From: Halosimplex rubrum
GTDB lineage: Archaea; Halobacteriota; Halobacteria; Halobacteriales; Haloarculaceae
DNA length: 64,000 bases
Assembly (NCBI RefSeq): GCF_013415885.1
Contig: NZ_CP058910.1
Span: 1,116,001 to 1,180,000 of the forward strand
Direction: 5' to 3'
Shown: in pieces, positions 8,653 through 64,000 of the stretch
Layout of the letters: every line of letters begins with the position of its first letter
Numbering within the stretch: the first letter of the stretch is position 1
The notes under the pieces: model-generated
The model's database searches: none
Seen by the model: only the letters and a program-made list of their open reading frames with translations
What the model was told of the DNA's origin: nothing
Translations under genes and position numbers: made by a program

Positions 8653-8755
8653 TGCCTGAGTGTTCCGTACCTGAATAATTAAAACTCTCTGGGTTCAGGA
8701 GAGATCGCATCCAAACATGAAAACTAATTCTAGGGGGGAGTTCTATAGGCATTCA

Positions 8756-9505: not shown

Positions 9506-9613
9506 AAGAATGACGAGTTTAATTTTTTTCCGACGGTTCGTATTCTCAATTGACTGGAGTAAATTATTCTTTGAGGAACAGAGTAAAACAGTGGACCGAA
9601 ACGGGAGTCGAAC

Positions 9614-26763: not shown

Positions 26764-27939
26764 ATGACCCGTCGACGACGGTCCCGAGTCGGTGTGGCGG
26801 TCTTCCTCGTGGCGCTCGCGGTACGACTGGCCGGCGTCGCAATTACGAGTCTGACGGCGCTGAATCCGTACGCCAAGGCGGATGCCGGTCGATTCGCGGC
26901 CAGTGCCGCCGAAACTGCCGCAACGCTGGCCGCCGGCGGTTTTCCGGTGATCCCGACGAACCCGAATCGAGTCGTCACACTCTGGGGGCTGTTCCTCTCG
27001 CCGCTTTGGCTGTTGCCGGGACCGAACAGATTGTACGGGCGGCTGTTCGCCGCACTCCTCGGTACAGTCGCCGTCTACGGACTATTTCGACTGGGTGAGG
27101 CCCTTCACTCCCAGGAGGCCGGCCTTGTAGCTGCGCTCCCGCTCGTCTGTTATCCGAGTTTTGTCTTCGTCCACAGCACCGTCCTCCGTGAGTCGTTTGT
27201 CCTTGCCGGGCTCGTATGGGCCACGATACTGTTGGGTGGCACCGAAGCGGTGCCCTCGCGGCTCCCGGAGCGGTTGGGGCCCGCGTGGGTCCCTGACGGG
27301 AGTATTCGGTTGATCGCCGGATTCGTCACGTTGGGGCTTATATCGGTGGTCCGATGGGAGAACCTGCCGTTGTACACGGTCGCGGTAGGCACGGGTTTCG
27401 CGGTCGGCCACCGTGAGGAGTTCACGCGCCTTCGTCTCGCCGCTGTCGGGAGCGTGGCCACAATTTCCGGCCTGATCGTCGGCCGTCCGCTGGTCCGGTC
27501 GGCGCTCGACTTTCTGGTCACCAAGCGCCGGCGTCGAAGCGAGGGGCGGACGGTGTACCTTCCCGAATTCCGATCCGATACGATCCCTAAAGCTGTCGCA
27601 TTCGCACCGGTCGGAGTTCTTTACTTCCTGTTCACGCCGTTCCCCTGGATGGTCGAGACGGTGGCCGACGCGGTCGTGTTTCCACAGGCGATCGGGAATC
27701 TCGTTGCGGCTGTCTTCGCGGTCGCGGGCGTCCCGTTCCTGTGGCGACGCGCCGAGCGAACGACCGGCGCGCTCGTCGCTGCCTTCCTCCTCGGGACGAT
27801 GCTGTACGGGCTCGTCAACGCGAACGTGGGTACGAACGTCCGACAGCGACAGATGTTCCTTTGGGTGCTCTTCCTGTTCGCCGGTGTTGGCATCGCGGCA
27901 CGGTTCGATCTCGCCGACCGCCTTGACCAGCTCGGATGA
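26764..27939 (+). CDS. Polytopic membrane protein of the glycan locus, GT39-like topology
   Basis: 391 residues with about nine to ten hydrophobic segments starting directly after MTRRRRSR (positive inside). A loop with an acidic residue follows the first helix (NPYAKADAGRF), the place where GT-C transferases keep a catalytic Asp. I cannot name the family with certainty; GT39/ArnT-like or polymerase-like proteins share this topology. The C-terminus NVRQRQMFLWVLFLFAGVG recurs in the fragment at 31,370-31,483. It follows a GT4 on the same strand and is probably cotranscribed. Confidence 0.7.
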   Translation: MTRRRRSRVGVAVFLVALAVRLAGVAITSLTALNPYAKADAGRFAASAAETAATLAAGGFPVIPTNPNRVVTLWGLFLSPLWLLPGPNRLYGRLFAALLGTVAVYGLFRLGEALHSQEAGLVAALPLVCYPSFVFVHSTVLRESFVLAGLVWATILLGGTEAVPSRLPERLGPAWVPDGSIRLIAGFVTLGLISVVRWENLPLYTVAVGTGFAVGHREEFTRLRLAAVGSVATISGLIVGRPLVRSALDFLVTKRRRRSEGRTVYLPEFRSDTIPKAVAFAPVGVLYFLFTPFPWMVETVADAVVFPQAIGNLVAAVFAVAGVPFLWRRAERTTGALVAAFLLGTMLYGLVNANVGTNVRQRQMFLWVLFLFAGVGIAARFDLADRLDQLG

Positions 27940-40685: not shown

Positions 40686-42128
40686 TCATCGGTCGGTCTT
40701 AGGCCGGACGGTTCGAACCGCGTCGGCGCCGACGTCCCACAGCTGGCGGATCACGATCTTCAGGTCGAACCAAAAGGACTGCCGGCGGATATACTCCACG
40801 TCGTAGCGGAGCTTCTCCTCGGGGTCGTGGCCGGTGGCGTCGTTGATCTGGGCGAGGCCGGTCAGCCCGGGTCGGACGAACCAGCGTCGGCGCCACGTGT
40901 CGGCGGTCGTCTCCATCTCCGTGTCGAGTTCCGGCCGCTCCGGGCGCGGGCCGACGACGCTCATGTCGCCGACGAGGATCGACCACAGCTGGGGGATCTC
41001 GTCGAGGTGGGTCCGCCGGAGGAACCGACCCACGCGAGTGACCCTGGGGTCGATCTCGCCCGCGTCTTCCTCGCTCAGTTTCGGTCCCGTGGCGGATTCG
41101 GCGTCGACGACCATACTCCGGAACTTGTAGACCGGGAAGCGGTCGCCAAACTCGGCGGTACGCTCCTGGCGGTACAGGACGGGCCCGGGGCTGTCGAGTT
41201 TGACGGCGACGGCGACGGCCGCGATCACCGGCGCGAGGGCGACCAGTCCCGTCGCGGCGAAGGCGATGTCGAACGCGCGCTTGACGACGTAGTCCTGGGT
41301 GTCCCACGGTTCCAGGTCGATGTCGAGGAGGTCGCTCTCGGAGACGCCGCTGGTCAGCACGCTGTCGGCGTGGTCGCGGTGGACCTTCGCGACGACCCCG
41401 TGTTCGTAGCAGGTGTCGAGCGCGCCGAAAAACTCCATGCGGTCGGCGTCGCCGAACGCCAGCACGGCCGTGTCCACGTCGTAGGCGACGAGTATCTCCT
41501 CCAGCCGGGAGAGGCCGCCGAGACACTCCAGCTCGGCGAGGGGGTCCTCCTCGAGGACGACGCCCCCGTCCGTGACGCCCGGCCCGCCCGGGCCGGTCCC
41601 GCTCTCCCGGCCCGCGAACGGCGAGACGTAGCCGACCACGTCGGGTTCGGCCGTCGCGAGCACGTCCGCCATCGCGGCCGGGTCGTCGCCGACGATGACG
41701 GCCCGTTCGGTGCCCGGCGGCCGACGGCGGATCGCCGCCATCGTCACCGGCAGGCCGACGAAGAGCAGTCCGGTCACGATCATCAGCGTCGACCGCGGGA
41801 GCCTGTAGGTGTAGTTGTAGTAGCCCAGCGCGGCCAGCCCGACCATCGCCAGAAGGACCCGCTTCTGGGTCAGGAGGATGGTGTCGAGGATCCGTCGCGG
41901 ACGCGGCTTGAAGACAGGCCACATCGCCGCGCTCACGACGCCGATCGTCGTCGCGATGGCGACCGCGAACTGCCCGCCCGTCAGGACCGACGGCGCCGGC
42001 CCCCCGAAGTAGGGGACCAACGCGAACAGGTTCTGGACGAACGGGTGGTTCGCGACGACGAGCACGAGGAGCGTCAGGACGACGGTCGCCCCCACGCTCG
42101 CGACTCGATACTGCCACCGCGAGTTCAT
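40686..42128 (-). CDS. Polyprenyl-phosphate phosphoglycosyltransferase (WbaP/PglC-like priming enzyme)
   Basis: 480 residues from ATG 42,128, with the TATA box 27 bases upstream. Four to five N-terminal helices and a Rossmann-like CoA_binding_3 domain (RAVIVGDDPAAMADV) precede the bacterial-type sugar transferase domain: KRAFDIAFAATGLVALAPVI, LYRQERTAEFGDRFPVYKFR, SMVVDAESATGPKLSEEDAG, RVTRVGRFLRRTHLDEIPQL and MSVVGPRPERPEL. The DE pair in the last helix-turn is the catalytic dyad of the PGT family. It transfers a phosphosugar to dolichyl-type phosphate and starts glycan assembly. The GT4 gene follows in the same operon. Confidence 0.92.
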   Translation of the reverse strand: MNSRWQYRVASVGATVVLTLLVLVVANHPFVQNLFALVPYFGGPAPSVLTGGQFAVAIATTIGVVSAAMWPVFKPRPRRILDTILLTQKRVLLAMVGLAALGYYNYTYRLPRSTLMIVTGLLFVGLPVTMAAIRRRPPGTERAVIVGDDPAAMADVLATAEPDVVGYVSPFAGRESGTGPGGPGVTDGGVVLEEDPLAELECLGGLSRLEEILVAYDVDTAVLAFGDADRMEFFGALDTCYEHGVVAKVHRDHADSVLTSGVSESDLLDIDLEPWDTQDYVVKRAFDIAFAATGLVALAPVIAAVAVAVKLDSPGPVLYRQERTAEFGDRFPVYKFRSMVVDAESATGPKLSEEDAGEIDPRVTRVGRFLRRTHLDEIPQLWSILVGDMSVVGPRPERPELDTEMETTADTWRRRWFVRPGLTGLAQINDATGHDPEEKLRYDVEYIRRQSFWFDLKIVIRQLWDVGADAVRTVRPKTDR

Positions 42129-42149
42129 CGTCCTGTATTCTCGAACAAA

Positions 42150-42161
42150 CTGATATAAACG
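42150..42161 (-). promoter_or_regulatory. TATA box of the priming transferase operon
   Basis: On the minus strand GTTTATATCA is centred 27 bases before the ATG at 42,128. This fits a leaderless transcript and supports that start over an upstream in-frame ATG at 42,314. Confidence 0.55.
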
Positions 42162-42317
42162 CTGTGTCGTAATTATCGGCGGTGAATACAGCCAGGGACC
42201 GGTGACGACCGATCTACTGCCGTAGGAGGCGTTCACTCTCGAATTGACAACTAACACACTTGTAACGATACCTGCTAAGAGCGTGGAGATAGATTCGGGC
42301 TCGTCTATCGCCATCGT

Positions 42318-43072: not shown

Positions 43073-44260
43073 TCACGAGCGCGTAGATAGCCAGCGGTTC
43101 TCAGTAAGTAGATATCCGGTTGCGAGTGCCAGTGAGGGGATTACTGGTGGCCGATATCCCCACGAATAGTCAATAAATGTCGCAGCGACGATAGCTGTCA
43201 GAACTATTACCGGAACGCCAAGATCACGTGCAACATGTTTCCGGTTCCGGATCAATTTTACAAACCCAGCGAACCCGAACAGTGTAACTGGGAGTAATGT
43301 CACCATATTGATCGCGTTGTGAAGTAGTGAAAAGCGGCCGACAACGGGAAGATAGAATAAAATCGTCTTGAGCGCAGCCATTATTATCATATAATCAATG
43401 TTCACGAGAAGAAATTCAACTGCACCCGTAGCAGCACGGGGAACGTACTCGTAGGTGAAAGTCGGATCGAACTGAACGAGTAGCCCGTCTCGCCAAGATT
43501 TAATGCCTTGTTCAAGGCCCCATGGAATCGTAATTGCGAGTAATGGTACCATGAGAACACCAGCTAAGAGGGCTGAAACACGCCGGTACGGAATAATATC
43601 GTACCCAAGGTCGTACCGACGAGGCAAAAGATCAAAGGTCAACCAGACCACCACGACGGGCAGCCCCTGTGGCTTCGTAAGTGCAAGCCACAAGAGTATT
43701 CCAGCGAGGATGAACTGATTCGCCCGTGAGCGGTGAGTCCTATATCGGTGGAGTTGCCAGAGAGAAAGCGTAATCAAGAAGGTAAACATCACGTCGCTGA
43801 GAAGCCGGGTCGTCCAAGCAAAGTTATCGAGCATCCCGGCCATGAATAGCCCAGCGATGAGCCCGGCAAGTGGTGTGAAGTAGCGCCGTCCGAGATCAAA
43901 GATTAGCACACACGTGGCTGCAGAGAGAAAGATCTGCCATAAGACAACAGCGGTGACCGATCCACCGGCTACTTTGTAGACACCACACATCGGAACCCAA
44001 TAGCCCGAAAACAGTGTCCAGTATGGTCCGAAATCAGAGAGTATTGCGAAAAATCCGCTAAAATCGGCCGGTAACGGTTCACAGAGGCTGAGAAAAGTTT
44101 CCGAACTGGGTACGATTTTATCACCACTCATCTGCCAATAGGTGGCTCTGATAGCGGTTGCTATTACAAATAGCGCCCCATAGGCAGCACCCGTATGCGT
44201 TAAGAGCTCGGCGTTCGCTCGGCCAACGACATCGTCGATAGACATATTCCCCACTCTCAT
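43073..44260 (-). CDS. Polytopic membrane protein, paralog of the gene at 28,915
   Basis: 395 residues with about ten hydrophobic helices and an extracellular loop after helix 1 (KIVPSSETFL). It shares FSGYWVPMCG, NFAWTTRLLSD, FDLLP with RYDL, RFSLLHNA and DYSWGYR with the protein at 28,915-30,126; overall the two are clearly homologous yet diverged. It is more AT-rich than its neighbours and lies next to a transposase remnant. Probably a GT-C-like transferase or polymerase of the surface glycan, by topology and context. ATG 44,260 is used; ATG 44,245 is possible. Confidence 0.75.
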   Translation of the reverse strand: MRVGNMSIDDVVGRANAELLTHTGAAYGALFVIATAIRATYWQMSGDKIVPSSETFLSLCEPLPADFSGFFAILSDFGPYWTLFSGYWVPMCGVYKVAGGSVTAVVLWQIFLSAATCVLIFDLGRRYFTPLAGLIAGLFMAGMLDNFAWTTRLLSDVMFTFLITLSLWQLHRYRTHRSRANQFILAGILLWLALTKPQGLPVVVVWLTFDLLPRRYDLGYDIIPYRRVSALLAGVLMVPLLAITIPWGLEQGIKSWRDGLLVQFDPTFTYEYVPRAATGAVEFLLVNIDYMIIMAALKTILFYLPVVGRFSLLHNAINMVTLLPVTLFGFAGFVKLIRNRKHVARDLGVPVIVLTAIVAATFIDYSWGYRPPVIPSLALATGYLLTENRWLSTRS

Positions 44261-46498: not shown

Positions 46499-48661
46499 TC
46501 AGTCGCTCCCTCCCGGGGTGGTTCCCGTGGACTCGTCGACGAACGAGTCGACGGTTTCGATCGTCGACCGCGCTGCGTCGGTTCCGACCCCCTCGGCGGC
46601 GTATGCGACCTGCTCGTAGCGTTCGGTCACCGCCCGGAGCGTCTCCAGCGTCTCCTCGTCCACGTCGGCGGCCTCGCAGTCGCGGTAGAACTCCCAGTGG
46701 GTGCGGCCGTCGCCCGGGACGGCGTTGCGCCGTTCGATCCGGTCTCTGAGTGCCGCGTATCCGACGCGGATCGCGGTCTCGGGGTCGGATCCCAGTTGCT
46801 CGCGTGCCGCCGCGAGAAGCGATGTCGTGTCTTCGTCGCTACGTCCGACCTGCCCCGTCGAGACCATCGGTTCGTCCAACCCGTCGCCTCCCGCTTCGCC
46901 GCCGCCGGCTTCCCAGGGGCGGCGACGCGCGAGGAGCGCACCGCCGCCGAGCGCGATGACCAGAGCTGCGAGTCCGCCGAGCAGGACGGGCTGGCCGCTC
47001 GTCCGCACGGTGAGAGAGTCGGTGGCCCGCGAGGGGGCGAGGTTGCTGCCGGTGTCTTGGTACGACGCTTCGACGCCGATCGTTCGCGATCCACCGAGGA
47101 GCCCCCCGTCGAGTTGTGCGCTCGGCACGGCGACCGCCGTCGCGAACGACCCGTTCGCGGTCGTCTCCGTCGTCGCGACCGACGTGCCGTTGACCGCGAT
47201 GTCGGCGGTCTGGTTGGGGATCCCGCCGCCGTTCAGCCGCGAGAACCGCCCGGACACGCGCACCGTCTGTCCGTCAACGTCGGTCGCTGCCGCCGACAGG
47301 TTCGTCCCGAGTTCGACGATGTCTACCGTCGTGTTCGCGCTCGTGCTGGCCAGTGTCCTGTCTTCGAGCGGCACGAGCACGCGGACCGTCCGTTCGCCGT
47401 CGGCGACCGAACTCGAAAGTGGCTCGGAGGCGTCGAATCGACCTGTTTCGTCGGTCTCGTTGCGCGCGAACACCTGTCCGCCGACGAGGATCACGTAGGG
47501 GGCGTCCGGAACACCCGTCCCCTCGACGCTCACCCAGCCGCTCACCATGAGTCGGTCGTCGTAGCTGAGCGACTCCGGCTCGGCGGTCACTTCCGCGTGC
47601 GGCGTTTCCCGCGTGAATTTCACGTTCAGCCGCTCGCTCACGGGGGCGTGTGCGGAGTCGTTTTCGGGAACGTACGCCACGGTCACGCTACTGGTGTTCG
47701 CCGAGACCAGCGCCGGTCGGTAGCTGACAGCGAACGAGCCGTTCGGCCCGGTCGTCGCTTCGAGAGTTTGGTTGCCCGCGGTGACGTTGAGCGTTCCGTT
47801 CTCGACTCCCGACCCGTTCGCGGTGACCGAGCCCCTGATCGACAGCGGGTCCGAGAACGACGCCGTCCGCGAGTGCTCCGCGACGGTCAGGTCGGTCGAG
47901 ACGAACGTCTGATCGCGGACGGTTTCCTGTCTCGTCGTGACGTTCCCGACGCTCTCGTTGATCGAAGCACGTGTCGTCGTGAAGTTCCGGTTCGAGAGGT
48001 TGCTGAGCCGCTGGTACCGTCGGTTGAGCCGGGTCCCGCTCTCGTTGACTGCGCCGGCGAGCCGCGAGAGCCGGTGGGCGCTTCGGTAGATCTGCGTCTC
48101 GTCGACCGGCGACGGTTTGTCGCTGCCCGCCTCGTACTCGCTCAGGTCTGGCCGCGTCCGGGCATCGGCCAACTCCACCGCGGTGTACTCCGCGTCCCGA
48201 AACGCTTCGTAGCGGTCGTGGACCCGATTGTATCGGTCCAGCGAGTCGATAAACGTGGCCTGCGCTTCGAGCATCCGTCGGTAGGCGATCGTTTGTTCCG
48301 TGTTACCGGTCTGGTTGGCGACCGACGAATACTGCTGCAGGAGCGACTGGTACTCCGTTCCGTTGACCCGTTCGCGGGCCTGTTCGATGTCGCCGCTGCT
48401 GAGATTGACGGCGCCGCTTCGGGCCCGTTCGGCGAGGCGCTGGGCAAGTTGTTGCTCGACCGCGCTCAGGCTCCCCTCGCTCCCGACTTCGGCGGGGTCA
48501 ACCTGTTTCGGCTCGCCGACACTTCCCGTCGATCCGAGGCCGGAGATGCCGGCTACGGGAGCGATAGCCCCAACCACCAGTCCGACGACGAGTATCGCGA
48601 CCCCGAGGGCCACGAGCGCCCGCGAGAGCCCGTCGTCTGGGAGGAGGGCGGGGCGGTTCAT
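46499..48661 (-). CDS. DUF4129 domain membrane protein
   Basis: 720 residues from ATG 48,661 (a TATA box is centred 28 bases upstream). Helix 1 is ALVALGVAILVVGLVVGAI. A helical coiled segment follows (residues about 60-240: EQQLAQRLAERARSG and similar), then several Ig/CARDB-like beta domains with repeated NGSFA and VNGT strands, a second helix (VLLGGLAALVIALGGGALL) and a C-terminal DUF4129 segment (AIRVGYAALRDRIERRNAVP, RTHWEFYRDCEA). The long open frame continues upstream of 48,661 as the shadow of the DUF58 gene. Transglutaminase-like partners are often present in bacteria; here the beta domains may bind envelope components. Confidence 0.87.
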   Translation of the reverse strand: MNRPALLPDDGLSRALVALGVAILVVGLVVGAIAPVAGISGLGSTGSVGEPKQVDPAEVGSEGSLSAVEQQLAQRLAERARSGAVNLSSGDIEQARERVNGTEYQSLLQQYSSVANQTGNTEQTIAYRRMLEAQATFIDSLDRYNRVHDRYEAFRDAEYTAVELADARTRPDLSEYEAGSDKPSPVDETQIYRSAHRLSRLAGAVNESGTRLNRRYQRLSNLSNRNFTTTRASINESVGNVTTRQETVRDQTFVSTDLTVAEHSRTASFSDPLSIRGSVTANGSGVENGTLNVTAGNQTLEATTGPNGSFAVSYRPALVSANTSSVTVAYVPENDSAHAPVSERLNVKFTRETPHAEVTAEPESLSYDDRLMVSGWVSVEGTGVPDAPYVILVGGQVFARNETDETGRFDASEPLSSSVADGERTVRVLVPLEDRTLASTSANTTVDIVELGTNLSAAATDVDGQTVRVSGRFSRLNGGGIPNQTADIAVNGTSVATTETTANGSFATAVAVPSAQLDGGLLGGSRTIGVEASYQDTGSNLAPSRATDSLTVRTSGQPVLLGGLAALVIALGGGALLARRRPWEAGGGEAGGDGLDEPMVSTGQVGRSDEDTTSLLAAAREQLGSDPETAIRVGYAALRDRIERRNAVPGDGRTHWEFYRDCEAADVDEETLETLRAVTERYEQVAYAAEGVGTDAARSTIETVDSFVDESTGTTPGGSD

Positions 48662-48683
48662 ACCCCGGTGTATCCCGCCGGCG

Positions 48684-48693
48684 GATTTAATCC
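48684..48693 (-). promoter_or_regulatory. TATA box of the DUF4129-DUF4350-moxR operon
   Basis: GGATTAAATC on the minus strand, centred 28 bases before the ATG at 48,661. It supports that start and a leaderless mRNA. Confidence 0.5.
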
Positions 48694-48770
48694 CTTCCTC
48701 TCTGGCTGAAACGCCCTGTGATCTCGCTGGACAACAGTAGCTTGAATGTGGTCGGTCCGCTCGCTCCGGT

Positions 48771-50198
48771 ATGGATCCGACGCCCCGGTTCTGGTCGATG
48801 GCCGGTATCGGTGCTCTGCTGGCGGTGTTGGGCGTGGTCTTCGCCCGGCCGGAGCCCGTCGTCGGTGCCGCCGGGGTCGGGGCGATCGTTCTTTCGCGCC
48901 AGTATGCGTTTCTGCGGGATATCCGGCAGCTCGACGACGACATCTCGGTCGAGATGACGACCGATGCGCGGTTCGTCAATCGCGACGACCGAATGGAGAT
49001 CACACTCACGGTCTCCGTCCCATCGAGAACTCCGATACCGCTGTCGGTCACGGCTGGGATGCCCGTTATCGCTGGGAGCGTCGACCGCGACGATCGGACG
49101 GTTATACTCGATGCCGGCGATGAGTCGGCAACGACCACGTTTTCGGCGGAGTGGCCAGTAGTTGGTCGAACAACGATTCCGGAACCGACTGTCTCCGTCG
49201 TCGATACGTACGGGATGTTCACCGAGTCGGTCCAGCGTGGGTCAGAGACCGGGGTACAGGTCGAACCACGACAGCCGCGGAACATCCACGTCGGCGAGGG
49301 TGGTGACGCGGTGGCAGCGCCGTTCGGTGGACATCGAACGGACCAGTACGGGCAGGGGACCGACCCCGCGGAACTGCGTGAGTACATGCCCGGTGACTCC
49401 GTGAGCAACATTGACTGGAAGGCGACTGCGAGGTTGGCGTACCCGCATGTTCGACAGTACGAAGTCGAAAGCGACCGACAGACCGTGCTGGTGATGGATC
49501 ATCGGAGTCGGATGGGCGAAGGTCCCGAGGGCGAGACAAAGTTCGACTACCTCCGAGAGGTTGCGCTGACAATCGCAACTGCCGCGGAATCAGCCGACGA
49601 TCCGCTCGGTTTCTATGCCGTGGGTGACAAGGGCCTGACCGTTGAAGAGCGACCGTCGACCGCATCGGACCACTACCGAGACGTTCAAACGTTGTTACAC
49701 GATCTCGAACCGACTACGAGTAGTGCAGTGAGCCGGGGTCAACTACAGACAGGGAGAATGCTTGCAGCGAGGCGTACAGCGACTACTATTGAGAATGACG
49801 ACTCGGCTTTCGGTCGGATGCTTCGGCCATATCTCAGTACGGCGGAGCAATATGTTCGCAAGATAGACGATAATCCGCTGTTTGGCACGATGCACACCTA
49901 TATTAACCGGCTTGGAAGCGATCACTGGGTGCTACTGTTTACTGATGATAGTGATCGGGCAGGCCTTCGAGAGACAATCCGGGTAGCCCGGTCGAATGGC
50001 AATCATGTCGTCTGTTTCCTTTCGCCCACTGTCCTCTACGAGACTGGGAGTCTAGCCGACCTGGACGATGCTTATGACCAGTACAGCAATTTCGAATCGT
50101 TCCGGCGGGAACTCGCTCGGATGGAGCAGGTGGCCGCCTACGAGGTCGGACCCGGCAGGCGGTTGTCGGCATTGCTCTCGGATGATCGACGGCGGTAA
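48771..50198 (+). CDS. DUF58 domain protein
   Basis: 475 residues. Two N-terminal hydrophobic segments (GIGALLAVLGVVFARPE, VVGAAGVGAIVLSRQ) precede a beta domain of about 150 residues and then the DUF58 signature AELREYMPGDSVSNIDWKAT with a VWA-like domain (TVLVMDHRSRMGEGPEGETK carries the MIDAS-like DxSxx position, here DHRSR). DUF58 proteins work with MoxR chaperones. The gene is divergent from the DUF4129 operon and is followed by three small membrane-protein genes. From about 49,700 the composition drops to a lower GC, possibly reflecting local recombination. Confidence 0.9.
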   Translation: MDPTPRFWSMAGIGALLAVLGVVFARPEPVVGAAGVGAIVLSRQYAFLRDIRQLDDDISVEMTTDARFVNRDDRMEITLTVSVPSRTPIPLSVTAGMPVIAGSVDRDDRTVILDAGDESATTTFSAEWPVVGRTTIPEPTVSVVDTYGMFTESVQRGSETGVQVEPRQPRNIHVGEGGDAVAAPFGGHRTDQYGQGTDPAELREYMPGDSVSNIDWKATARLAYPHVRQYEVESDRQTVLVMDHRSRMGEGPEGETKFDYLREVALTIATAAESADDPLGFYAVGDKGLTVEERPSTASDHYRDVQTLLHDLEPTTSSAVSRGQLQTGRMLAARRTATTIENDDSAFGRMLRPYLSTAEQYVRKIDDNPLFGTMHTYINRLGSDHWVLLFTDDSDRAGLRETIRVARSNGNHVVCFLSPTVLYETGSLADLDDAYDQYSNFESFRRELARMEQVAAYEVGPGRRLSALLSDDRRR

Positions 50199-51966: not shown

Positions 51967-53010
51967 ATGGCGCATGAGGACCAACCGGCCCGCTCATGGC
52001 TGTTGCTCCTCCCAAGGCAGGTACGGGACCTCCCCGGCGACTTGGCCGCCGTCTTCTCGTTCGTCGCGCTGGCGAACCTCGCGGTTGTCCTCCCGGTCGT
52101 TCGGAACTCGCCGGTCCGCGTCGCGCTCGGTCTGCCGTTCGTTCTGTTCGTTCCCGGGTATGCCCTAATCGCGGCGCTCTTTCCCGAGGCGGGCGGATCG
52201 CCGGCCGAATCCGCCGGCGAAAACGGTGACATCGAAGAGAAATCGGCCAATGACTGGTCGGAGATAGACGGCATTGAGCGTATCACGCTCTCGTTCGGCC
52301 TCAGCATTGTCGTTGTTCCGCTGGTCGGACTCGTGTTGAACTTCACGCCGTGGGGGACCCGGATGGTCCCGGTTATGCTGAGCGTCAACGGCGTTACCGC
52401 AGTTGCGGCGGCGGCGGCCGCGCGACGTCGCTGGGCGCTCCCCAAAGACGAGCGGTTCACCGTCCCTTACCGGACCTGGGTCGCGGCCGGCCGCCGGGAA
52501 CTGTTCGAACCCGACTCGCGGGCCGACGCGGCGTTGAACGTCCTGCTAGTCGCAAGCGTCCTCCTGGCTGCTGGGAGTGTCACTTACGCCGTCGGCGTCC
52601 CAAAACAGGGCGAGTCGTTCACCGAGTTCTACCTCCTCACCGAAGACGAGGAGGGCGACCTGATCGCTGACGAGTACCCCACGAACGTCACGGTCGGGGA
52701 GTCGGCACCAGTCGCTGTCGGCGTCCGCAACCGCGAACACCGGTCACAGAACTACACTGTCGTGGTCGAAATCCAGCAAATCCAGCACACGAACAACGAA
52801 ACTATCGTCCAGGGGGCCAGAGAGATAGAGCGGTTCGGCGTCGCCCTGGACCACAACGAGACCAGCCAGCGGTCAGTCCGGATCACACCGATGACGGCGG
52901 GTCAACGAGTTCGCGTAGCGTTCATGTTGTACCGGGGCAGCCCGCCGGCCGACCCGGGTCTCGACAGCGCCTATCGCTGGACATCATTGTACGTGAACGG
53001 CAACGGTTAG
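51967..53010 (+). CDS. DUF1616 domain membrane protein
   Basis: 347 residues from ATG 51,967. The N-terminal half is membrane-bound with four helices: ANLAVVLPVVRNSPVRVAL, GLPFVLFVPGYALIAALFP (the DUF1616 hallmark), FGLSIVVVPLVGLVLNF and ALNVLLVASVLLAAGSV. An extracytoplasmic beta domain rich in Asn-x-Ser/Thr sites (NVTV, NYTV, NETI) forms the C-terminus. DUF1616 genes are found beside archaeal glycan-assembly and oligosaccharyltransferase genes. Its stop overlaps the convergent stop of the AglB-like gene by four bases. Confidence 0.85.
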   Translation: MAHEDQPARSWLLLLPRQVRDLPGDLAAVFSFVALANLAVVLPVVRNSPVRVALGLPFVLFVPGYALIAALFPEAGGSPAESAGENGDIEEKSANDWSEIDGIERITLSFGLSIVVVPLVGLVLNFTPWGTRMVPVMLSVNGVTAVAAAAAARRRWALPKDERFTVPYRTWVAAGRRELFEPDSRADAALNVLLVASVLLAAGSVTYAVGVPKQGESFTEFYLLTEDEEGDLIADEYPTNVTVGESAPVAVGVRNREHRSQNYTVVVEIQQIQHTNNETIVQGAREIERFGVALDHNETSQRSVRITPMTAGQRVRVAFMLYRGSPPADPGLDSAYRWTSLYVNGNG

Positions 53011-55940
53011 CTCGTCCCGTTTCCGGCGAGCCGCTCGACTTCGGCAGCCGAGAGTGCCCGGTCGTAAAGTCTGACCTCGTCGATCGTGCCCGTGAAGTCG
53101 CCGTCGCGGTTCGTTTCACCACCGATCGACAACGGCGGCGTCCACTTGGCTGGTCCCCCTGACGGCCTGTCGCTGGCGACCTCCGTGCCGTTGACGTACA
53201 GGGTTCGTTGCGCCCCGTCATAGGTGACGGCCACCTGTGTCCACGTACCGTTTGGAACCTTCCCACCCCTGAGCGGTTCGTCCGACACACCAGGCAGGTC
53301 CACGACGAGGTTCCCATCGTTGAGCAGCACGAAAACACCTTCACGTCCCCGCAGGAGACTCTGGAAGCCGTCGGCCTCAGTCCCCGCCGGCTTGACCCAC
53401 ATACTCACGGTGAATTGATCGACGGGATCGACATCCGTCACGATGTAGCCGTCCCCGTCGAACTGAACCGCTCTTCCGCGGTAGCCATCAACAACAGTCG
53501 TCACGTTAGTGCTGACACCGCGGTGTCCGCCAACCCGATCGTACACAATCGTGTCATTAGCCTCGTCAAACGGCCAGTGGGCCAGGCCAGTCCGGCTGTG
53601 GAGCACCTCGCGCCTCCCGTCGACTATCGCGCGCTTGGTCACTGTCACCTCGGTATCAGCGACTGTGTACGTCCCTGAATAGGGTACCCTCACCGAGTAC
53701 ACGCCATCTGGATTGACCCGTACCTCCCGCTGGTACGTCCGAGTTTCGCTTCCGACGCTCGCTTGCGTCCCAGCGGTCACAGTCCCAGAACTGTTCGCGA
53801 CGCCCACGATGGTCGCCCCCTCGACGAGCTGGAACACCTTCTGTGGCCCGTCGTTGGCGTCGTACACCAGCCGGTAGTGACCGAAGCTCGGTAACTGTCC
53901 CTCGCCCATCATTCGGTTCTCTATAGTCGGCCCCTCGGTATCGTTGCGCTGGCCGGCGTAGAGGACGAACCCATAGCGGCCGCGCAACCGCTCGTACCAG
54001 CCGCCCGGATCGGTCGATCCAAGGAACGGGCTGTAGAAATTCCGTTCATAGAAGTACGAATCCGACTGTCCATTGACGAAGTAGTTGTAAAAGCGGGTGG
54101 TGTCCCACTGGCTGAACACCCCATTGTCGGGGTAGTCAAGACCATTGTCCTCGGCGTACTGGTCGATCCATCGAGCCGTATCGTAGGTGTCGTCGCCGAT
54201 GGCTAGCTGGTCCTGTTTGATCGGGGTCTGTATGAGAGCGAGGCTGGCGACCAGTAGAAACAAGACGGCGACTGAGGCGACTTGCCGACCGGATAGACTG
54301 GGGAGGTTGTCGATTCCGGTCTGCTCGCCGAACGCCTGAACGGGCCGGGCCAGATCGACCAAGGCGGCCAGACGGAGGAAGCCGACGCCCGCGAACACCG
54401 CGGTGAACAGCGACAGTGGCCCCGCAAACCTGACCTTCACGAGCGACCAGAACAGGAAGTAAACGCCGTAGACGGCCGGGATTGCCCATGTCGGGTCATT
54501 ATCGGTGAGCGCGCGGTACAGCCCGACTGCGACGAACGGGAGCGCGAGAAAGAGGATGAACCCGAAAAACGGCAACGGCCCACCCAACACACCAAGCTCT
54601 GTAGTGAACAGGCTGGCTGACTCGGCGATCGTCTGCTCCTGGAACAGTCCGCTGGCCTGCTTGAGCGCCGTCGCCATCCCGGGGACGAATGTGACGGCGA
54701 GGACACCAGCCAGCAGCGTCGTCGCGGCTCCGCTGGTGAGCGCGGCCCGCGGCGATAGCGACGACCGGCGGGTCGCTTCCAAGTAGCCGACCCCGACGGT
54801 AGCGACGACCACTGCGACCAGCGGAAACAGCGCTCGAAACCCAGGCAGCCATCCCAAGCTGGCGTGGACTAGAAGAACCAGCACACCCGCGAACAGGCCG
54901 CCGCCTATGTACGGGAGAGTCGCGACCAGCGGCGACGTCCCACCGCGCAGCGCGAACGCACCACGGAGGACGGTGTAGAGGACGAACGGGACGAGTAGCA
55001 TCGGGGCGCCGACCCAGGACAGCGACTGGATTGCGAGCAAAACGCCAAGGGCGACGGTCGTCAGCTGGAAACGCCACTCACCCAGCCGGTCGCGGGTCGG
55101 CGGGGTAGTCCCAGCGACGAGCCGTTCCCAGCGGACCATCACCAGCACCGTCAATCCCAGCCAGATGTAGTCAAACGCGTGGTGATCGCCAAACCCGAGT
55201 ACCGTCCGATAGGCGTGGACCGGCGTGACTGCCAGCATGAGGACGCTCGCAAGCGCAACGCGGATGTCGTCGGTCAGTTGTCGGGTAATCTCGAATACCG
55301 TCACCGCCGTCACCACCGCGGCGAGGACGGGGTACCACGCCAGCACGGTCCGGGCACTCGTGACGGTTCCGCCAAGCAGTTCCGAGGCCCACCACGCTGC
55401 GACTAGCATGAGCGTGTCGCCATCGAGACTGACCCCCTCGGGAAGCGAATCGAGCGCCACCGGGCTGTACTCCGCCTGGAGCTGTTCGATCCAGTACAGC
55501 CGCTTGTAGGGATCGTTTCCGACCAGGGTTATCGTCTCCCGATAGACCGAGTCGTAGACGAACACGACCCGCAGGACCACGACGAACGCCAGCAGGCCCG
55601 CCAGCGACAGGGTCGTCCGCTTCGACAGAGGCCAGGTGAAATCCGGAACTCCGAGCGCAAGCGCACTGCTCACCCCGTCTCCGGTATCACTGCTCTCAAC
55701 CGCCGCTTCCGGCGAGTCTAGCACCGCACCGAGCGCTTCCGGGTCGGCGACCCGGTAGCCGTCGCCGGTTTTCTCGACGACCCCGCTGGCGACGATCTTA
55801 CCGAACTGACCCGTGTCGACCGGCACGTCGTCGAACTCCCAGGGACCGTCGGCGTCTACCTCCAACATCTGCCCGAGTGGCCCCTCTAGCTCCGGGTACT
55901 CCTCTAATAATCGCTCGGCGTCGTCTCGTGCCGTCGGCAT
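53007..55940 (-). CDS. STT3/AglB-like oligosaccharyltransferase with C-terminal LamG domain
   Basis: 977 residues. The first 95 are soluble and winged-helix-like (TGQFGKIVASGVVEKTGDGY). A GT-C membrane region with about 12 helices follows: GNDPYKRLYW carries the first-loop Asp (D143), GFGDHHAFD is the second metal motif (D252-H254), and TIAE (437-440) is the TIxE motif. In the position of WWDYG stands QWDTT (611-615). A concanavalin-A/LamG domain fills about 760-975 (GLAHWPFDE, AVQFDGDGYI, FTVSMWVKP, TGTIDEVRLYDRALSAAEVE). AglB transfers lipid-linked glycans to Asn; the altered motif suggests different acceptor choice. The stop overlaps that of the DUF1616 gene. Confidence 0.87.
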   Translation of the reverse strand: MPTARDDAERLLEEYPELEGPLGQMLEVDADGPWEFDDVPVDTGQFGKIVASGVVEKTGDGYRVADPEALGAVLDSPEAAVESSDTGDGVSSALALGVPDFTWPLSKRTTLSLAGLLAFVVVLRVVFVYDSVYRETITLVGNDPYKRLYWIEQLQAEYSPVALDSLPEGVSLDGDTLMLVAAWWASELLGGTVTSARTVLAWYPVLAAVVTAVTVFEITRQLTDDIRVALASVLMLAVTPVHAYRTVLGFGDHHAFDYIWLGLTVLVMVRWERLVAGTTPPTRDRLGEWRFQLTTVALGVLLAIQSLSWVGAPMLLVPFVLYTVLRGAFALRGGTSPLVATLPYIGGGLFAGVLVLLVHASLGWLPGFRALFPLVAVVVATVGVGYLEATRRSSLSPRAALTSGAATTLLAGVLAVTFVPGMATALKQASGLFQEQTIAESASLFTTELGVLGGPLPFFGFILFLALPFVAVGLYRALTDNDPTWAIPAVYGVYFLFWSLVKVRFAGPLSLFTAVFAGVGFLRLAALVDLARPVQAFGEQTGIDNLPSLSGRQVASVAVLFLLVASLALIQTPIKQDQLAIGDDTYDTARWIDQYAEDNGLDYPDNGVFSQWDTTRFYNYFVNGQSDSYFYERNFYSPFLGSTDPGGWYERLRGRYGFVLYAGQRNDTEGPTIENRMMGEGQLPSFGHYRLVYDANDGPQKVFQLVEGATIVGVANSSGTVTAGTQASVGSETRTYQREVRVNPDGVYSVRVPYSGTYTVADTEVTVTKRAIVDGRREVLHSRTGLAHWPFDEANDTIVYDRVGGHRGVSTNVTTVVDGYRGRAVQFDGDGYIVTDVDPVDQFTVSMWVKPAGTEADGFQSLLRGREGVFVLLNDGNLVVDLPGVSDEPLRGGKVPNGTWTQVAVTYDGAQRTLYVNGTEVASDRPSGGPAKWTPPLSIGGETNRDGDFTGTIDEVRLYDRALSAAEVERLAGNGTS

Positions 55941-56688: not shown

Positions 56689-56933
56689 TCGGTTGAATCT
56701 CACGCCGTTTCACCGGGGTCGGCAAGAGCCACGTGTAAAATAGAAGATTATGCATCTACAAGAGACGAAACAGAGGACCGACGAAAACAAAGGAATTATC
56801 CATTCGTCGAACGCACGAGGGGATAACTTGAACCGAGTCCGCCCCTGGACGCAAGCTGGTCCCGAGAGAGGCCACGACGAATGACCGACGCTATTCCCCG
56901 AAACGAGTGGTCCAGAGTGGAGGCATAACACGC

Positions 56934-57956
56934 ATGGTAACTACGACCGAACTGCTGTTCCTTGGTGTGGCGGCGTTCGTCCTGCTGTGGGGATTCGAGC
57001 GTTACCGGGTCCGTTTCGTACGGACGGACCTGGTCATCGCGTCGGTCGTCGCTGGGGGTCTGGCGGCATTCGTGCTGGTTCCGGGGCTGTTCTACTCGAT
57101 TGGGAACGTCTTCGACATCCGGAAGCGATTCGTCGTGGCGTCGCTGATAGGGAGCCTCACGCTGCTGGCGATCCTGCTGTACGTGATCGGACGGCTGCGA
57201 CTCCTCCGAACGGAGATGACCGAACTCAACCGCGCCCTATCGGTCGATCAGGCCCCGGAGACCGACGGCGGGACCGAGCAACTGTACGTCGTTATTCCAG
57301 CGTACAACGAGGGCGATACCATCCGCTCGGTAGTCGACTCCCTGCCCGAGCGGGTCTGCGGGTACGAGGTCCAGCCGTTGGTCGTCTGTGACGGCTGTGT
57401 CGACGATACCGCCGAACAGGCTCAATACAGCGGCGCGACCGTCGTCGAACACCACGTCAACCAGGGCCAGGGTGGGGCGCTCAAGACTGGCTTCGAGATT
57501 GCCATCGAGAACGATGCCGCCATCGTCGTGACGATGGACGCCGACGGCCAGCACCCCGCCGACGAACTGGACCGACTGGTCCGACCGATCGTTGAGGATC
57601 GCGCCGACTACGTGATGGGATCGCGCTACCTCGGCATCGACGAGTCCGGCAACGGCACCGTCCGTGAAGCCGGTATCCAGTTTTTCACTCGGGTGATCAA
57701 CGTTCTCACGAAGTCCGATATCACTGACTGCACCAATGGCTACCGGGCGATCCGCGGGTTGATGCTTGAAGACCTGACGCTGACTGAAGAGCGGTTCAGC
57801 GCCCCCGAACTGATCATCGAAGCCCGCAAGAACGGCCTCCGGATCGAGGAGATTCCAGTGACTATCGAAGAACGTGAGGCCGGCGAGACCAAGAAGCCAC
57901 AGGTCGGGTACGCACTCGGGCTCTCGCGGACGATACTGGCGACGTGGATCCGGTGA
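56934..57956 (+). CDS. DUF2304-GT2 fusion (AglJ/DPM-like glycosyltransferase)
   Basis: 340 residues from ATG 56,934. The first 100 form three hydrophobic helices and a basic/acidic linker (ELLFLGVAAFVLLWGFER, FVLVPGLFYSIGNVFDI, LTLLAILLYVIGRLRLLR), the DUF2304 pattern. The rest is a GT2 domain: YVVIPAYNEGDTIRSVVDSL, VVCDGCVDDT, VTMDADGQHPADELDRL (DxD-like metal motif), NGYRAIRGLMLEDL and EERFSAPELIIEARKNGL. Such enzymes make dolichyl-phosphate-linked sugars or start N-glycans (AglJ). DUF2304 and GT2 are usually separate neighbouring genes; here they are one protein. Confidence 0.87.
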   Translation: MVTTTELLFLGVAAFVLLWGFERYRVRFVRTDLVIASVVAGGLAAFVLVPGLFYSIGNVFDIRKRFVVASLIGSLTLLAILLYVIGRLRLLRTEMTELNRALSVDQAPETDGGTEQLYVVIPAYNEGDTIRSVVDSLPERVCGYEVQPLVVCDGCVDDTAEQAQYSGATVVEHHVNQGQGGALKTGFEIAIENDAAIVVTMDADGQHPADELDRLVRPIVEDRADYVMGSRYLGIDESGNGTVREAGIQFFTRVINVLTKSDITDCTNGYRAIRGLMLEDLTLTEERFSAPELIIEARKNGLRIEEIPVTIEEREAGETKKPQVGYALGLSRTILATWIR

Positions 57957-58044: not shown

Positions 58045-58887
58045 ATGAGTCAACCGACGTTCTCCGTTGTCTTTCTCACCTGGAACCCCGGGGACCGGAT
58101 CGCTAACTCTATTCGGTCCGTTTTTTCCCAGTCGTACGAGGATCTGGAGGTCATCGTCGTCGATAACGACAGCGAAGACGGGACGGTCGACCGCCTCAAC
58201 ACCGAGTTCGACGACGACCGGCTCCGGGTCTACGAAAACGACCGGAACCTTGGGTTCGCTGACGGTATCGAAGTCGGCATTGAGCACGCTAGAGGAGAGT
58301 ATATCTGCTGTTACAACCACGACACGACTTTCGCCGACGGATATTTTGAGACGCTGTCGAAGCACGTCAGCGATGACGTGGTGTTGACAACTGCCAGAGA
58401 GAACCACCGGGTTTCGTCGACAGCTAAATGTGTCCGTCTCATCTCAATATACGGGTTTACTGTTCCCTACGATGTTACAGGACTGTCCGGACGGGCTAGG
58501 GTAAATTACGTTCCGGGTGACGGTGCGATCGTTCCCCGTCAGATCTATCAAAAGGTCCTGAACAGGACTGTCTTTGACGCACGGTACCACCCGCGGTGTG
58601 AGGATGTCAACCTCTCACTGACCCTTGAGAACGCCGATGTGGACATCTATGCCGTCCTAGATACGTATTCCGTCCACCCGGACAAAGCGGAGTTCTACGC
58701 GCCGACTGTCGCGAACTTCCTCACTCTGGCGGGGACCACACGGGCCAGAATGCGAACATTCTGGGCCAATGACCGCCCCGTGCAAGCAACTATCGCCGCG
58801 ATGAGTATCTTCACGCATCCGCTTTTTATCTATTCGCTTTCGTTCCCACGACCAACAGCCGCATTCCGCGAGCGTACTGGTTACTAA
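58045..58887 (+). CDS. Glycosyltransferase family 2 (rhamnosyltransferase-like)
   Basis: 280 residues. SVVFLTWNPGDRI, DLEVIVVDNDSEDGT (nucleotide binding and the DxD region), LGFADGIEVGIEHARGEYI and CCYNHDTTFADGYF are the GT2 core; PGDGAIVPRQIYQKV and RCEDVNLSLTLENADVDI follow, as in rhamnosyltransferases. The promoter-like TTGTATAGC lies about 31 bases before the start. It is on the plus strand after the AglJ-like gene and convergent with the next GT4, whose stop it overlaps by four bases. Confidence 0.9.
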   Translation: MSQPTFSVVFLTWNPGDRIANSIRSVFSQSYEDLEVIVVDNDSEDGTVDRLNTEFDDDRLRVYENDRNLGFADGIEVGIEHARGEYICCYNHDTTFADGYFETLSKHVSDDVVLTTARENHRVSSTAKCVRLISIYGFTVPYDVTGLSGRARVNYVPGDGAIVPRQIYQKVLNRTVFDARYHPRCEDVNLSLTLENADVDIYAVLDTYSVHPDKAEFYAPTVANFLTLAGTTRARMRTFWANDRPVQATIAAMSIFTHPLFIYSLSFPRPTAAFRERTGY

Positions 58888-59999
58888 GACTTGGCCGTCT
58901 CTTCGAGGATCGACTGGTACTGATCGATTGCTGCGCCCCACCGGAATCGTTGTGCTCGCTCTCTTCCCGAAGTTGTCCTTGTTCTGTATAGTTCGTTATC
59001 GTCAAGCAGCGAGTCAATAGCGTCTGCGATCGCCCGTGTCGAATCCGGGTCAACGTACTCGGCCGCATCCCCAAGTACCTCTGGTAGTGCCGCACGGTCG
59101 GAAGCGACCACTGGCGTACCACACGCCATCGCCTCCAGCGGTGGGATTCCGAATCCCTCGTAGTACGAGGGAAAGACGAAGACGTCCGCGTGCTCGTAGA
59201 TGTATTTCAACTCCTGCTGATCGACGTAGCCTGGCGTGACGATGTCCGGGTCGTCACGGATATCCGTCCAGTCGATGCCCGTATCATCGTAGGTAGAGCG
59301 TGGCCCGGGGCCGACCAGTAGTAGTTTCTGCGGAAGGTCCGTGTGCCGTTTCAGCAACTTAAACCCCTCGACAACACCGTCGATGTTCTTTCGCTTGTGC
59401 GCTCCTCCGACGAATAGTACGTACTCATCGGGTACGGCTGTCTCAGTGCCCATCCCGGGGTCGAAGAACACGTCGTCGACACCGTTATAGACAACCTGTA
59501 TCTTATCCTGGGCGATGTCAAACCGGTCGACGAGTTCCCCTTTGGTGAACTCCGAGACGGTCACGATTGTCTCCGCAGTTCTGAGACTGAGGGGGACACG
59601 GACCCGCTGTATGGCGGTGTAGTACCACGGAGCGTAGCCGAGATAGTTGAGGATGTCGTGGACACAGATAACTCTGGGTGCGGCCGGCCGGACGAACGGA
59701 TTGTTGGCGTTCGGGCAGAACAGGACATCGACATCCGACTGCGCGGCCGAGAGCGGTAGGATCGACTGTTCCCAGAGCAGGCCGAACAGTTGTGACTTCA
59801 CGGCGAACCCGGCCGATTTGACGGTCGTATTCGGATAGGCTTCCTCGATGTTCCTGTGTCCGAACAGTGTGATTCCGTCGTTGCGTCTCGCGAGCCTGGT
59901 CGTGATTTCGTGTGCGACCTGTATCGCACCGCCCGGTTGATCATGCATCAGGGTACGCGCATTGACGCCAATATGGACGGAGGTTTCGTCGTGGGTCAT
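58884..59999 (-). CDS. Glycosyltransferase family 4 (WcaI/mannosyltransferase-like)
   Basis: 371 residues. [20 protein letters not shown] is the N-terminal glycine loop and [15 protein letters not shown] follows. The donor half has [40 protein letters not shown] and [20 protein letters not shown] with the EX7E pattern. GT4 members of this type transfer mannose or rhamnose with retention. Five bases separate it from the GT2 gene upstream on the same strand, so both are in one operon. Confidence 0.92.
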
Positions 60000-62912: not shown

Positions 62913-64000
62913 TTACCGATAGATGTCCGAGATATTCATCACCACCGTCTCGATCGGTTGACGCGTCGCGGGGATCGAGACACATGTGAGGAAATAAGTT
63001 ACTCCACCGAGGACGATAACGGTGGCGAGTTCGTATACCGTGTTGACAGCAAGTACTGTCTGCAACCCCCACGTCACGCCGGTCATCACTATCGCAGCCA
63101 CGAAGAGTCCAATTACCTGACCGACAGGGAATACGAGATCGATTTCTGAGGTTACGAAATTGAGGATGATGACCGTCGAGATACTGAACGCCAGTGTGGT
63201 GGCTATCGCGGCGCCGGCGATACCAAACCGGGGGATCAGAAGGGCGTTCATGAGTATATTTGCGATCCCGCTGGTGATTGCAGCTATCGCCCGCAATCGG
63301 GGTTTGTCCACACCAGAGAGTAGATTCTTGTACGTTCCGTCTACAGCTTCGACAATTTTTCCCACGAGCAAGATCAGTAACGGAGTCAGGGCGATACCGT
63401 ATTCCGTTCCGAACACGATTTCAAGAAGCGGGCTGCCCACGACGAAGGCACCGAAAACAATCGGAAGCACCAGCAGCAGCGACAGAAACAGCCCCGTAGA
63501 GAGTCTCTTAGTTATCTCGTCAGTTCGCCCAGCGGCATCAAACGAACTGATCTGGGGCAGGAGCGTTTCCTGAACGGCTCTGCTGAGCAGGACTGAAAAG
63601 TTGCTGATCCGCCACGCGATTTCGTAGGCAGCAACCACTGCAGGTCCGAGGAAGTATCCGAGAAGTGCGATATCCGCCCAGCTGTATAGGTAACTGTCAA
63701 GATGATTCGCTGCGGCCCACTTCCAGTACTGGTAGAGTGAGCGGAAGTGTGTAAACGACGGCGTACCGGGTCGAGTAGATACTCCATGGAAAGCGACAGC
63801 AGCCCCAGCGAGATTCCCGAGGACGAACGCGACGACAAGAGCGAGCAATGAGAGTCCCTGTGTAATGAGTAACGCGCCGCCGACTACCCAGATTAGCTTC
63901 CGTACAAAGAGTATTACCCCGACATCTCCAGTTCGTACCTCTCCTTTTAGAGTACTTATACCCATCCTCTGGAACTGAAATACGATGGTTCCCACGATCA
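62913..64000 (-). CDS. Wzx/RfbX-type polysaccharide flippase (5' partial)
   Basis: The frame is open to the window edge, so the N-terminal quarter is missing. About 360 residues remain, with ten hydrophobic helices of the MATE/MOP fold: WKWAAANHLDSYLYSWADIA, LLGYFLGPAVVAAYEIAWRI, LLSRAVQETLLPQISSFDA and LNFVTSEIDLVF-type loops. Wzx proteins carry lipid-linked oligosaccharide across the membrane; full-length relatives have about 470 residues. GTG at 63,993-63,995 is not a credible start because the frame continues upstream. It is probably first in the minus-strand operon with the membrane protein and GTs. Confidence 0.92.
   Translation of the reverse strand, partial: IVGTIVFQFQRMGISTLKGEVRTGDVGVILFVRKLIWVVGGALLITQGLSLLALVVAFVLGNLAGAAVAFHGVSTRPGTPSFTHFRSLYQYWKWAAANHLDSYLYSWADIALLGYFLGPAVVAAYEIAWRISNFSVLLSRAVQETLLPQISSFDAAGRTDEITKRLSTGLFLSLLLVLPIVFGAFVVGSPLLEIVFGTEYGIALTPLLILLVGKIVEAVDGTYKNLLSGVDKPRLRAIAAITSGIANILMNALLIPRFGIAGAAIATTLAFSISTVIILNFVTSEIDLVFPVGQVIGLFVAAIVMTGVTWGLQTVLAVNTVYELATVIVLGGVTYFLTCVSIPATRQPIETVVMNISDIYR

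Follow-up and report, generated by a model that had tools for sequence, protein, structure and literature searches.

A haloarchaeal family of oligosaccharyltransferase-like paralogs with a conserved replacement of the WWDYG motif

In oligosaccharyltransferases (OSTs), acidic residues of DXD and TIxE contact the acceptor Asn through their carboxylates, and the WWDYG and DK/MI motifs build the Ser/Thr pocket (PMC8342417, PMC3703281). The archaeal enzyme is AglB (TIGR04154; A. fulgidus AglB-L, PDB 3waj/5gmy/7e9s; Hfx. volcanii HVO_1530). Here, we analyzed a 64,000-nt stretch of Halosimplex rubrum DNA (contig NZ_CP058910.1, positions 1,116,001 to 1,180,000; hereafter, the window) that contains a gene, P0001, for an STT3/AglB-like paralog. 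The paralog resembles AglB in its GT-C transmembrane part, loop-1 Asp, DHH, TIxE Glu, Arg of RFA, and P1 peripheral domain (AglB_L1). Unlike AglB, it lacks WWDYG, shows no conserved DK/MI residue in the alignment, has a shorter stretch between the pocket motif and HYR, carries an extra N-terminal domain and, optionally, a LamG domain, scores below the TIGR04154 cut-off, and is linked to clusters that encode a polyprenyl-phosphate sugar-1-phosphate transferase (PGT).

Another described system is the glycosylation of Asn-2 in Halobacterium, reportedly studied by Sumper and co-workers, with an observation dating from 1998. In H. salinarum, a repeating-unit glycan is attached to the S-layer protein via N-acetylgalactosamine at Asn-2; it is built on dolichyl pyrophosphate (Dol-PP) and blocked by bacitracin (PMC2952790). 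Attachment persists if Val, Leu, or Asn replaces Ser-4 in the Asn-Ala-Ser sequence, a tolerance for which, according to a 2010 review, no suitable explanation exists (PMC2952790), and later papers still leave the Asn-2 enzyme open (PMC6591318, PMC3871713). In Hfx. volcanii, the distant PMT/STT3-like protein HVO_2052 (arCOG00563) of the Agl15 cluster is, like our paralog, an additional relative of STT3 encoded among glycosylation genes, but it belongs to a different arCOG family (PMC5898192). The paralog family was considered as the unidentified OST of the Agl15 pathway and rejected, since AglB is reported as the sole STT3 homolog of Hfx. volcanii (PMC3871713), no PF02397 PGT was found in this species, and HVO_2052 is a separate candidate (PMC5898192).

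Gene P0001 and its family

The open reading frame (ORF) of P0001 was judged real from its haloarchaeal protein composition and from full-length relatives that are 34 to 51% identical. An earlier note on this DNA had described an OST paralog in which GNDPY, DHH, TIxE, and RFA are kept, WWDYG is replaced by QWDTT, and a LamG domain is added at the C terminus. All of these elements are present in P0001, which is an AglB/STT3-like protein without WWDYG and with a C-terminal LamG domain. Its features are as follows.

53007..55940, minus strand: STT3/AglB-like paralog P0001, 977 amino acids (ORF and translation, Pfam, TIGR04154)
55716..55940, minus strand: N-terminal domain, residues 1-75, kept family-wide (D42 S43 G44 F46 G47 E48 V50 Y62), winged-helix-like by eye only (alignments)
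55506..55520, minus strand: external loop 1 catalytic Asp motif GNDPY, residues 141-145 (aligned to GGNDPW of A. fulgidus AglB, AfAglB)
55179..55187, minus strand: second metal motif DHH, residues 252-254 (alignment)
54621..54632, minus strand: external loop 5 TIxE-type motif TIAE, residues 437-440 (alignment)
54423..54431, minus strand: RFA, residues 504-506 (aligned with NRFAYYF of AfAglB)
54084..54110, minus strand: QWDTTRFYN, residues 611-619, aligned with WWDYG; the family as a whole follows xW[GSD]x[NST]RxYN (profile-profile alignment)
53646..53825, minus strand: P1-like peripheral beta domain (AglB_L1), residues 706-765 (Pfam and alignment to AfAglB)
53037..53585, minus strand: LamG/concanavalin-like domain, residues 786-968, optional in the family (Pfam and tree)

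Pfam matches on P0001 comprised STT3 (residues 167-350, 42 bits), AglB_L1, the P1 domain of AglB (residues 708-765, 26 bits), and Laminin_G_3 (residues 829-968, 99 bits, cut-off 27.6). A simple hydropathy method found 11 strong segments in residues 110-572; the GT66 criterion is 13 transmembrane helices. The host genome is complete, haloarchaeal, and 4.48 Mb in size, and the region of the window is rich in surface-glycan genes. A canonical AglB, whose existence elsewhere in the genome the earlier note had proposed to check, was found 2.2 Mb from P0001 (G000:C1:3409511-3412834, 1107 amino acids, SWWDYG). It scores 854 bits with TIGR04154, compared to 134 bits for P0001, which falls below the curated cut-off of 450. 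The same separation was seen in 12 other haloarchaeal genomes: each had one AglB match above the cut-off (774 to 914 bits), while the non-AglB matches scored 35 to 136 bits. With the Pfam model, canonical AglB had seemed to be missing from genus g8; this proved to be an artefact of that weak model, as each of the five genomes has an AglB match with TIGR04154.

At a threshold of E ≤ 1e-15, relatives of P0001 were found in 215 of the 391 Halobacteria genomes searched and in 60 of 86 genera; the H. salinarum chromosome was not among these genomes. Across the phylum, a family-profile search of 197 genomes (33 from Halobacteria and 164 from other classes) detected no members in the 164 genomes outside Halobacteria, where the top score was at most 127 bits versus at least 697 for true members. 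When the matching loci were fetched, WWDYG was present in 8 of 9 matches from outside Halobacteria and the new signature in 20 of 21 Halobacteria members. In a maximum-likelihood tree, 60 paralogs split from 21 canonical AglBs with 100% support and long branches. One genome (G164; loci L068, L108, and L109) carries three family members beside canonical AglB, the one at L109 without the N-terminal domain. Genes of this family are already in databases as STT3-like, for example under the PGAP names “STT3 domain-containing protein” and “LamG-like jellyroll fold domain-containing protein” (WP_251344419.1, WP_227356318.1), with function, signature, and pathway link not annotated. No description of the family was found in a search of an open-access library of papers.

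The P1/AglB_L1 domain is present in 22 of 24 members. The N-terminal domain, which the earlier note took for an addition to P0001, is common to about 58/60 paralogs; its profile had no match in PDB, and the winged-helix assignment was not confirmed. LamG was detected in 18 to 21 of the 60 paralogs, with 6 to 8 changes on the tree, and is therefore optional. As a determinant of a new specificity, it was rejected: it is absent from about two-thirds of the family, and the signature at the WWDYG site is the same in paralogs without it.

Catalytic residues and the WWDYG position

The best solved relative of the family is AfAglB (E = 7.7e-35), to which the GND, DHH, (I)AE, and RFA segments all align. 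Residue counts were taken over the alignment of 60 family members. N142 and D143 of loop 1 and R504 of RFA are each found in 60/60 sequences. Within DHH, position 252 is Asp in 57 and Glu in 3 members, H253 is invariant (60/60), and H254 is kept in 53/60. The claim that TIxE is kept holds for its acidic residue (E440, 59/60) but not for the whole motif, since only I and E are conserved and T occurs in 3/60. The near-invariance of the catalytic residues supports the suggestion that the chemistry may be intact; judged from these positions, it probably is.

The pocket position differs. Profile-profile alignment with 15 to 21 canonical haloarchaeal AglBs places VFSQWDTT of P0001 opposite VMSWWDYG. 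Over the 60 aligned members, this site follows the signature Vx[ST]xW[GSD]x[NST]RxYN, in which V608, R616, and N619 are invariant (60/60 each), W612 is found in 59/60, and position 613 is Gly in 42, Ser in 9, and Asp in 7 members. The QWDTT whose conservation among LamG-bearing homologs the earlier note had asked about is a minor variant of this signature. The note had also allowed for a true WWDYG elsewhere in the protein. A WWD string sought along the entire sequence was present in 0/60 paralogs, so no displaced motif exists in the sequence, while WWDYG is retained in 21/21 haloarchaeal canonical AglBs. No conserved Lys, Ile, or Met was found in the expected DK/MI region of the paralog alignment; placing variant DK motifs requires structure (PMC3703281). 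The stretch from the pocket motif to HYR is 76 residues in P0001 versus about 150 to 220 in canonical AglBs, that is, some 70 to 150 residues shorter.

That this is a family with a conserved replacement of WWDYG can be stated with very high confidence. Chance or decay of the motif is ruled out by the invariance of the signature over 60 members, and a replacement conserved throughout the family argues for a changed acceptor contact or specificity and against loss of function. The different acceptor proposed in the earlier note is thus upheld as far as the conserved alteration of the pocket goes, but its appeal to the LamG and N-terminal domains as an explanation is unsupported.

Predicted donor and acceptor, and other genes of the window

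PF02397 PGTs produce polyprenyl-pyrophosphate-linked sugars. One lies about 11 kb from the paralog.

40686..42314, minus strand: PF02397 PGT, predicted initiating enzyme for a Dol-PP-linked glycan

A PGT of this family was found in 202 of 215 genomes with the paralog and in 39 of 176 genomes without it (odds ratio 55, P = 1e-52). Within seven genera where presence varies, 25 genomes had both genes, 6 the paralog only, none the PGT only, and 21 neither (exact P = 2.5e-7); the association persists within genera and is thus not only a matter of shared ancestry. Among the 80 genomes in which both positions were listed, the two genes were at most 20 kb apart in 49 and at most 50 kb apart in 67. When genomes were compared side by side, a PGT was located within 50 kb of the paralog in 13/17 and of canonical AglB in 0/19, and the paralog itself lay within 50 kb of AglB in 1/17. 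At several loci, a gene for an UppP-type pyrophosphate phosphatase adjoins the paralog. The tie to PGT, the product of this enzyme, and the UppP neighbors together suggest that the paralog uses a Dol-PP-linked donor, a conclusion that is well supported though indirect and that we consider probable. Characterized archaeal N-glycans are mostly derived from dolichyl phosphate (DolP) (PMC4476749). In genus g12, all four sampled genomes (G182, G276, G337, and G360) contain a PF02397 PGT and lack the paralog, so Dol-PP-linked glycans must have another consumer in these genomes.

S-layer genes of the H. salinarum type were located with a query covering the N-terminal end of that protein; the following results are a lead only. 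In 18 genomes for which both genes were listed, the S-layer gene was at most 5 kb from the paralog in 5 and at most 20 kb in 7 (chance expectation about 3% per genome). Genus g18, which is probably Halobacterium, was represented by 13 genomes: 4 had the CSG-type S-layer gene together with the paralog, 1 the S-layer type only, 8 neither, and none the paralog only. In G018, the S-layer gene is followed by an ABC gene, the STT3 paralog, GlmS, two nucleotidyltransferases, and a PGT, an N-acetylhexosamine (HexNAc)-PP-lipid module adjoining an S-layer gene. The mature S-layer protein of G018 appears to start with ANAD, with Asn-2 kept and Asp at +2 in place of Ser-4; this is a single case. The signal peptide of this protein (L163:5447-7987) matches that of the H. 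salinarum sequence used as the query. On plasmids, we found the annotated order csg, STT3, UppP in Haloplanus sp. GDY1 (L217), the order PGF-CTERM proteins, STT3, UppP, sugar transferase in Salinigranum rubrum (L218), and a surface glycoprotein near STT3 in Salinibaculum sp. KK48 (L220). Such groupings of a surface-protein gene with an STT3 paralog, one on a plasmid of 52 kb, resemble a mobile cell-surface cassette.

The earlier note had left the acceptor as another sequon, a lipid, or a glycan. A protein Asn without a Ser/Thr requirement would fit best, because both carboxylates that hold the Asn amide are kept and S-layer genes are adjacent in some genomes; that the acceptor is a protein Asn lacking Ser/Thr at +2 is, in our estimate, an evenly balanced proposition.

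Other genes of the window are listed below.

7588-8652, minus strand: NeuB
8717-9505, plus strand: cytidylyltransferase
9614-10648, plus strand: PseG-like protein
26764-27939, plus strand: GT-C (PMT_2) membrane glycosyltransferase
43073-44260, minus strand: GT-C (PMT_2) membrane glycosyltransferase
51967..53010, plus strand: DUF1616 membrane protein, convergent with the paralog, 4-bp overlap (Pfam)
56907..57956, plus strand: DUF2304 and GT2 (AglJ/DPM-like) glycosyltransferase (Pfam, TIGR)
58045-58887, plus strand: GT2 glycosyltransferase (Pfam)
58884-59999, minus strand: GT4-type glycosyltransferase (Pfam)
62913..63995, minus strand: MurJ/Wzx-type flippase, partial at the window edge

Given the nonulosonic (legionaminic/pseudaminic-like) acid genes at 7588-10648, the glycan made here may carry a sialic acid–like sugar. 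DUF1616 was rejected as a generally conserved partner of the paralog (4/60 loci); in Haladaptatus, DUF1616 and DUF58 genes occur near a LamG-type homolog. Two long ORFs overlap on opposite strands, 46499-49411 (minus, 970 amino acids) and 46697-48709 (plus, 670 amino acids), the former with weak DUF4129 and Big_6 matches.

Proposed function, alternatives, and meaning

The reading that we favor, and to which we give an even chance, is that the paralogs are a second OST-like GT-C enzyme, a haloarchaeal family distinct from AglB that transfers Dol-PP-linked glycans independently of Ser/Thr at +2. On the outside of the membrane, the enzyme would receive its glycan, possibly a repeating-unit glycan that has been flipped or polymerized, from dolichyl pyrophosphate. 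As in AglB, the carboxamide of the acceptor Asn would be bound by the Asp of loop 1 together with the Glu of TIxE, but Ser/Thr at +2 would not be required. The acceptors would be surface (S-layer) proteins, whose gene is adjacent in some genomes, and the LamG tail would serve as an optional glycan- or wall-binding accessory.

The strong tie of the paralog to clusters of PGT, Wzx, NTP-transferase, and epimerase genes typical of surface polysaccharides also fits a ligase that transfers the same Dol-PP-linked glycan to a membrane lipid or a growing polysaccharide, in the manner of an O-antigen ligase or polymerase, giving a capsule or exopolysaccharide. Most loci have no adjoining S-layer gene and the Ser/Thr pocket is gone, which agrees with such an enzyme, but the P1 domain is retained and S-layer genes are adjacent in several genomes; we regard a non-protein acceptor as unlikely, if the most serious of the alternatives. 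The nearly invariant W612 and the invariant R616 and N619 show that some acceptor contact at the pocket site is under selection, and could instead mean that the Ser/Thr pocket was rebuilt from these residues in an ordinary sequon-dependent OST that differs from AglB only in its lipid-linked donor. Archaeal AglB is reported to be flexible toward the lipid-linked glycan (paper cited in PMC5867893). However, WWDYG is kept in 21/21 haloarchaeal canonical AglBs and 8/9 loci from other classes, and the Lys/Ile of the DK/MI motif is not conserved in the paralogs, which makes a rebuilt pocket quite improbable.

Loss of the acceptor pocket, together with the side hydrolytic activity of OSTs (PMC8342417), would also be compatible with an enzyme that transfers nothing, either hydrolyzing lipid-linked glycans or modulating AglB as a regulatory or pseudo-OST. 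Here the full catalytic set and the new signature are invariant and the gene is tied to PGT rather than to AglB, and we consider this very improbable.

Several observations weigh against a second, sequon-independent OST. Thirteen paralog-bearing genomes have no detected PGT, and GT2/AglJ-like enzymes near some paralogs make DolP donors possible. Adjacency to an S-layer gene is a minority feature (4/61 representative loci in a motif scan), no S-layer gene is present in the 64-kb window, and an Asn near the mature S-layer N terminus is not clearly commoner in genomes with the paralog than in those without it. The evidence that the pocket has been lost comes from alignment, as AlphaFold2 models of the full-length protein and of its C-terminal domain (residues 571-775), built from two-sequence alignments, had predicted local distance difference test (pLDDT) values of 35 and 36 and were discarded. 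Lastly, the 2010 review reports a single OST gene in H. salinarum (PMC2952790) and this species lay outside the searched genomes, so the family may not account for the classical case.

A paralog that keeps the Asn-holding carboxylates, has its Ser/Thr pocket replaced, and is partnered by a PGT has the properties predicted for the Asn-2 enzyme of Halobacterium. The two systems would share a pyrophosphate-linked donor and an indifference to Ser at +2, both predicted for the paralog, and in G018 the HexNAc enzymes (GlmS, nucleotidyltransferases, and PGT) and an S-layer gene stand beside it. They differ in that the Asn-2 enzyme has never been identified, whereas the paralog is known here from genes in a sample that does not include H. 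salinarum. We tentatively put forward the paralog family as the Asn-2 enzyme class, while holding that the opposite has the better chance.

Across all three domains, the pocket that binds the sequon ranks with the most conserved features of OSTs, and a widespread family in which the catalytic site is kept and the pocket motif swapped would be a natural separation of catalysis from sequon recognition. It is conceivable, at somewhat less than even chance, that haloarchaea run a second N-glycosylation system, a regular sequon-free pathway that attaches Dol-PP-linked (repeating-unit) glycans without Ser/Thr at +2, supplies the missing Asn-2 enzyme class, and is organized in surface cassettes with S-layer genes, some of them on plasmids. 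For the Halobacterium S-layer glycosylation that depends on pyrophosphate but not on Ser, the paralogs are testable enzyme candidates; they might also serve as a tool to glycosylate Asn residues outside N-x-S/T. Such a second system may escape glycoproteomic studies of haloarchaea in which sites are filtered by sequon or the work ends with deletion of AglB.

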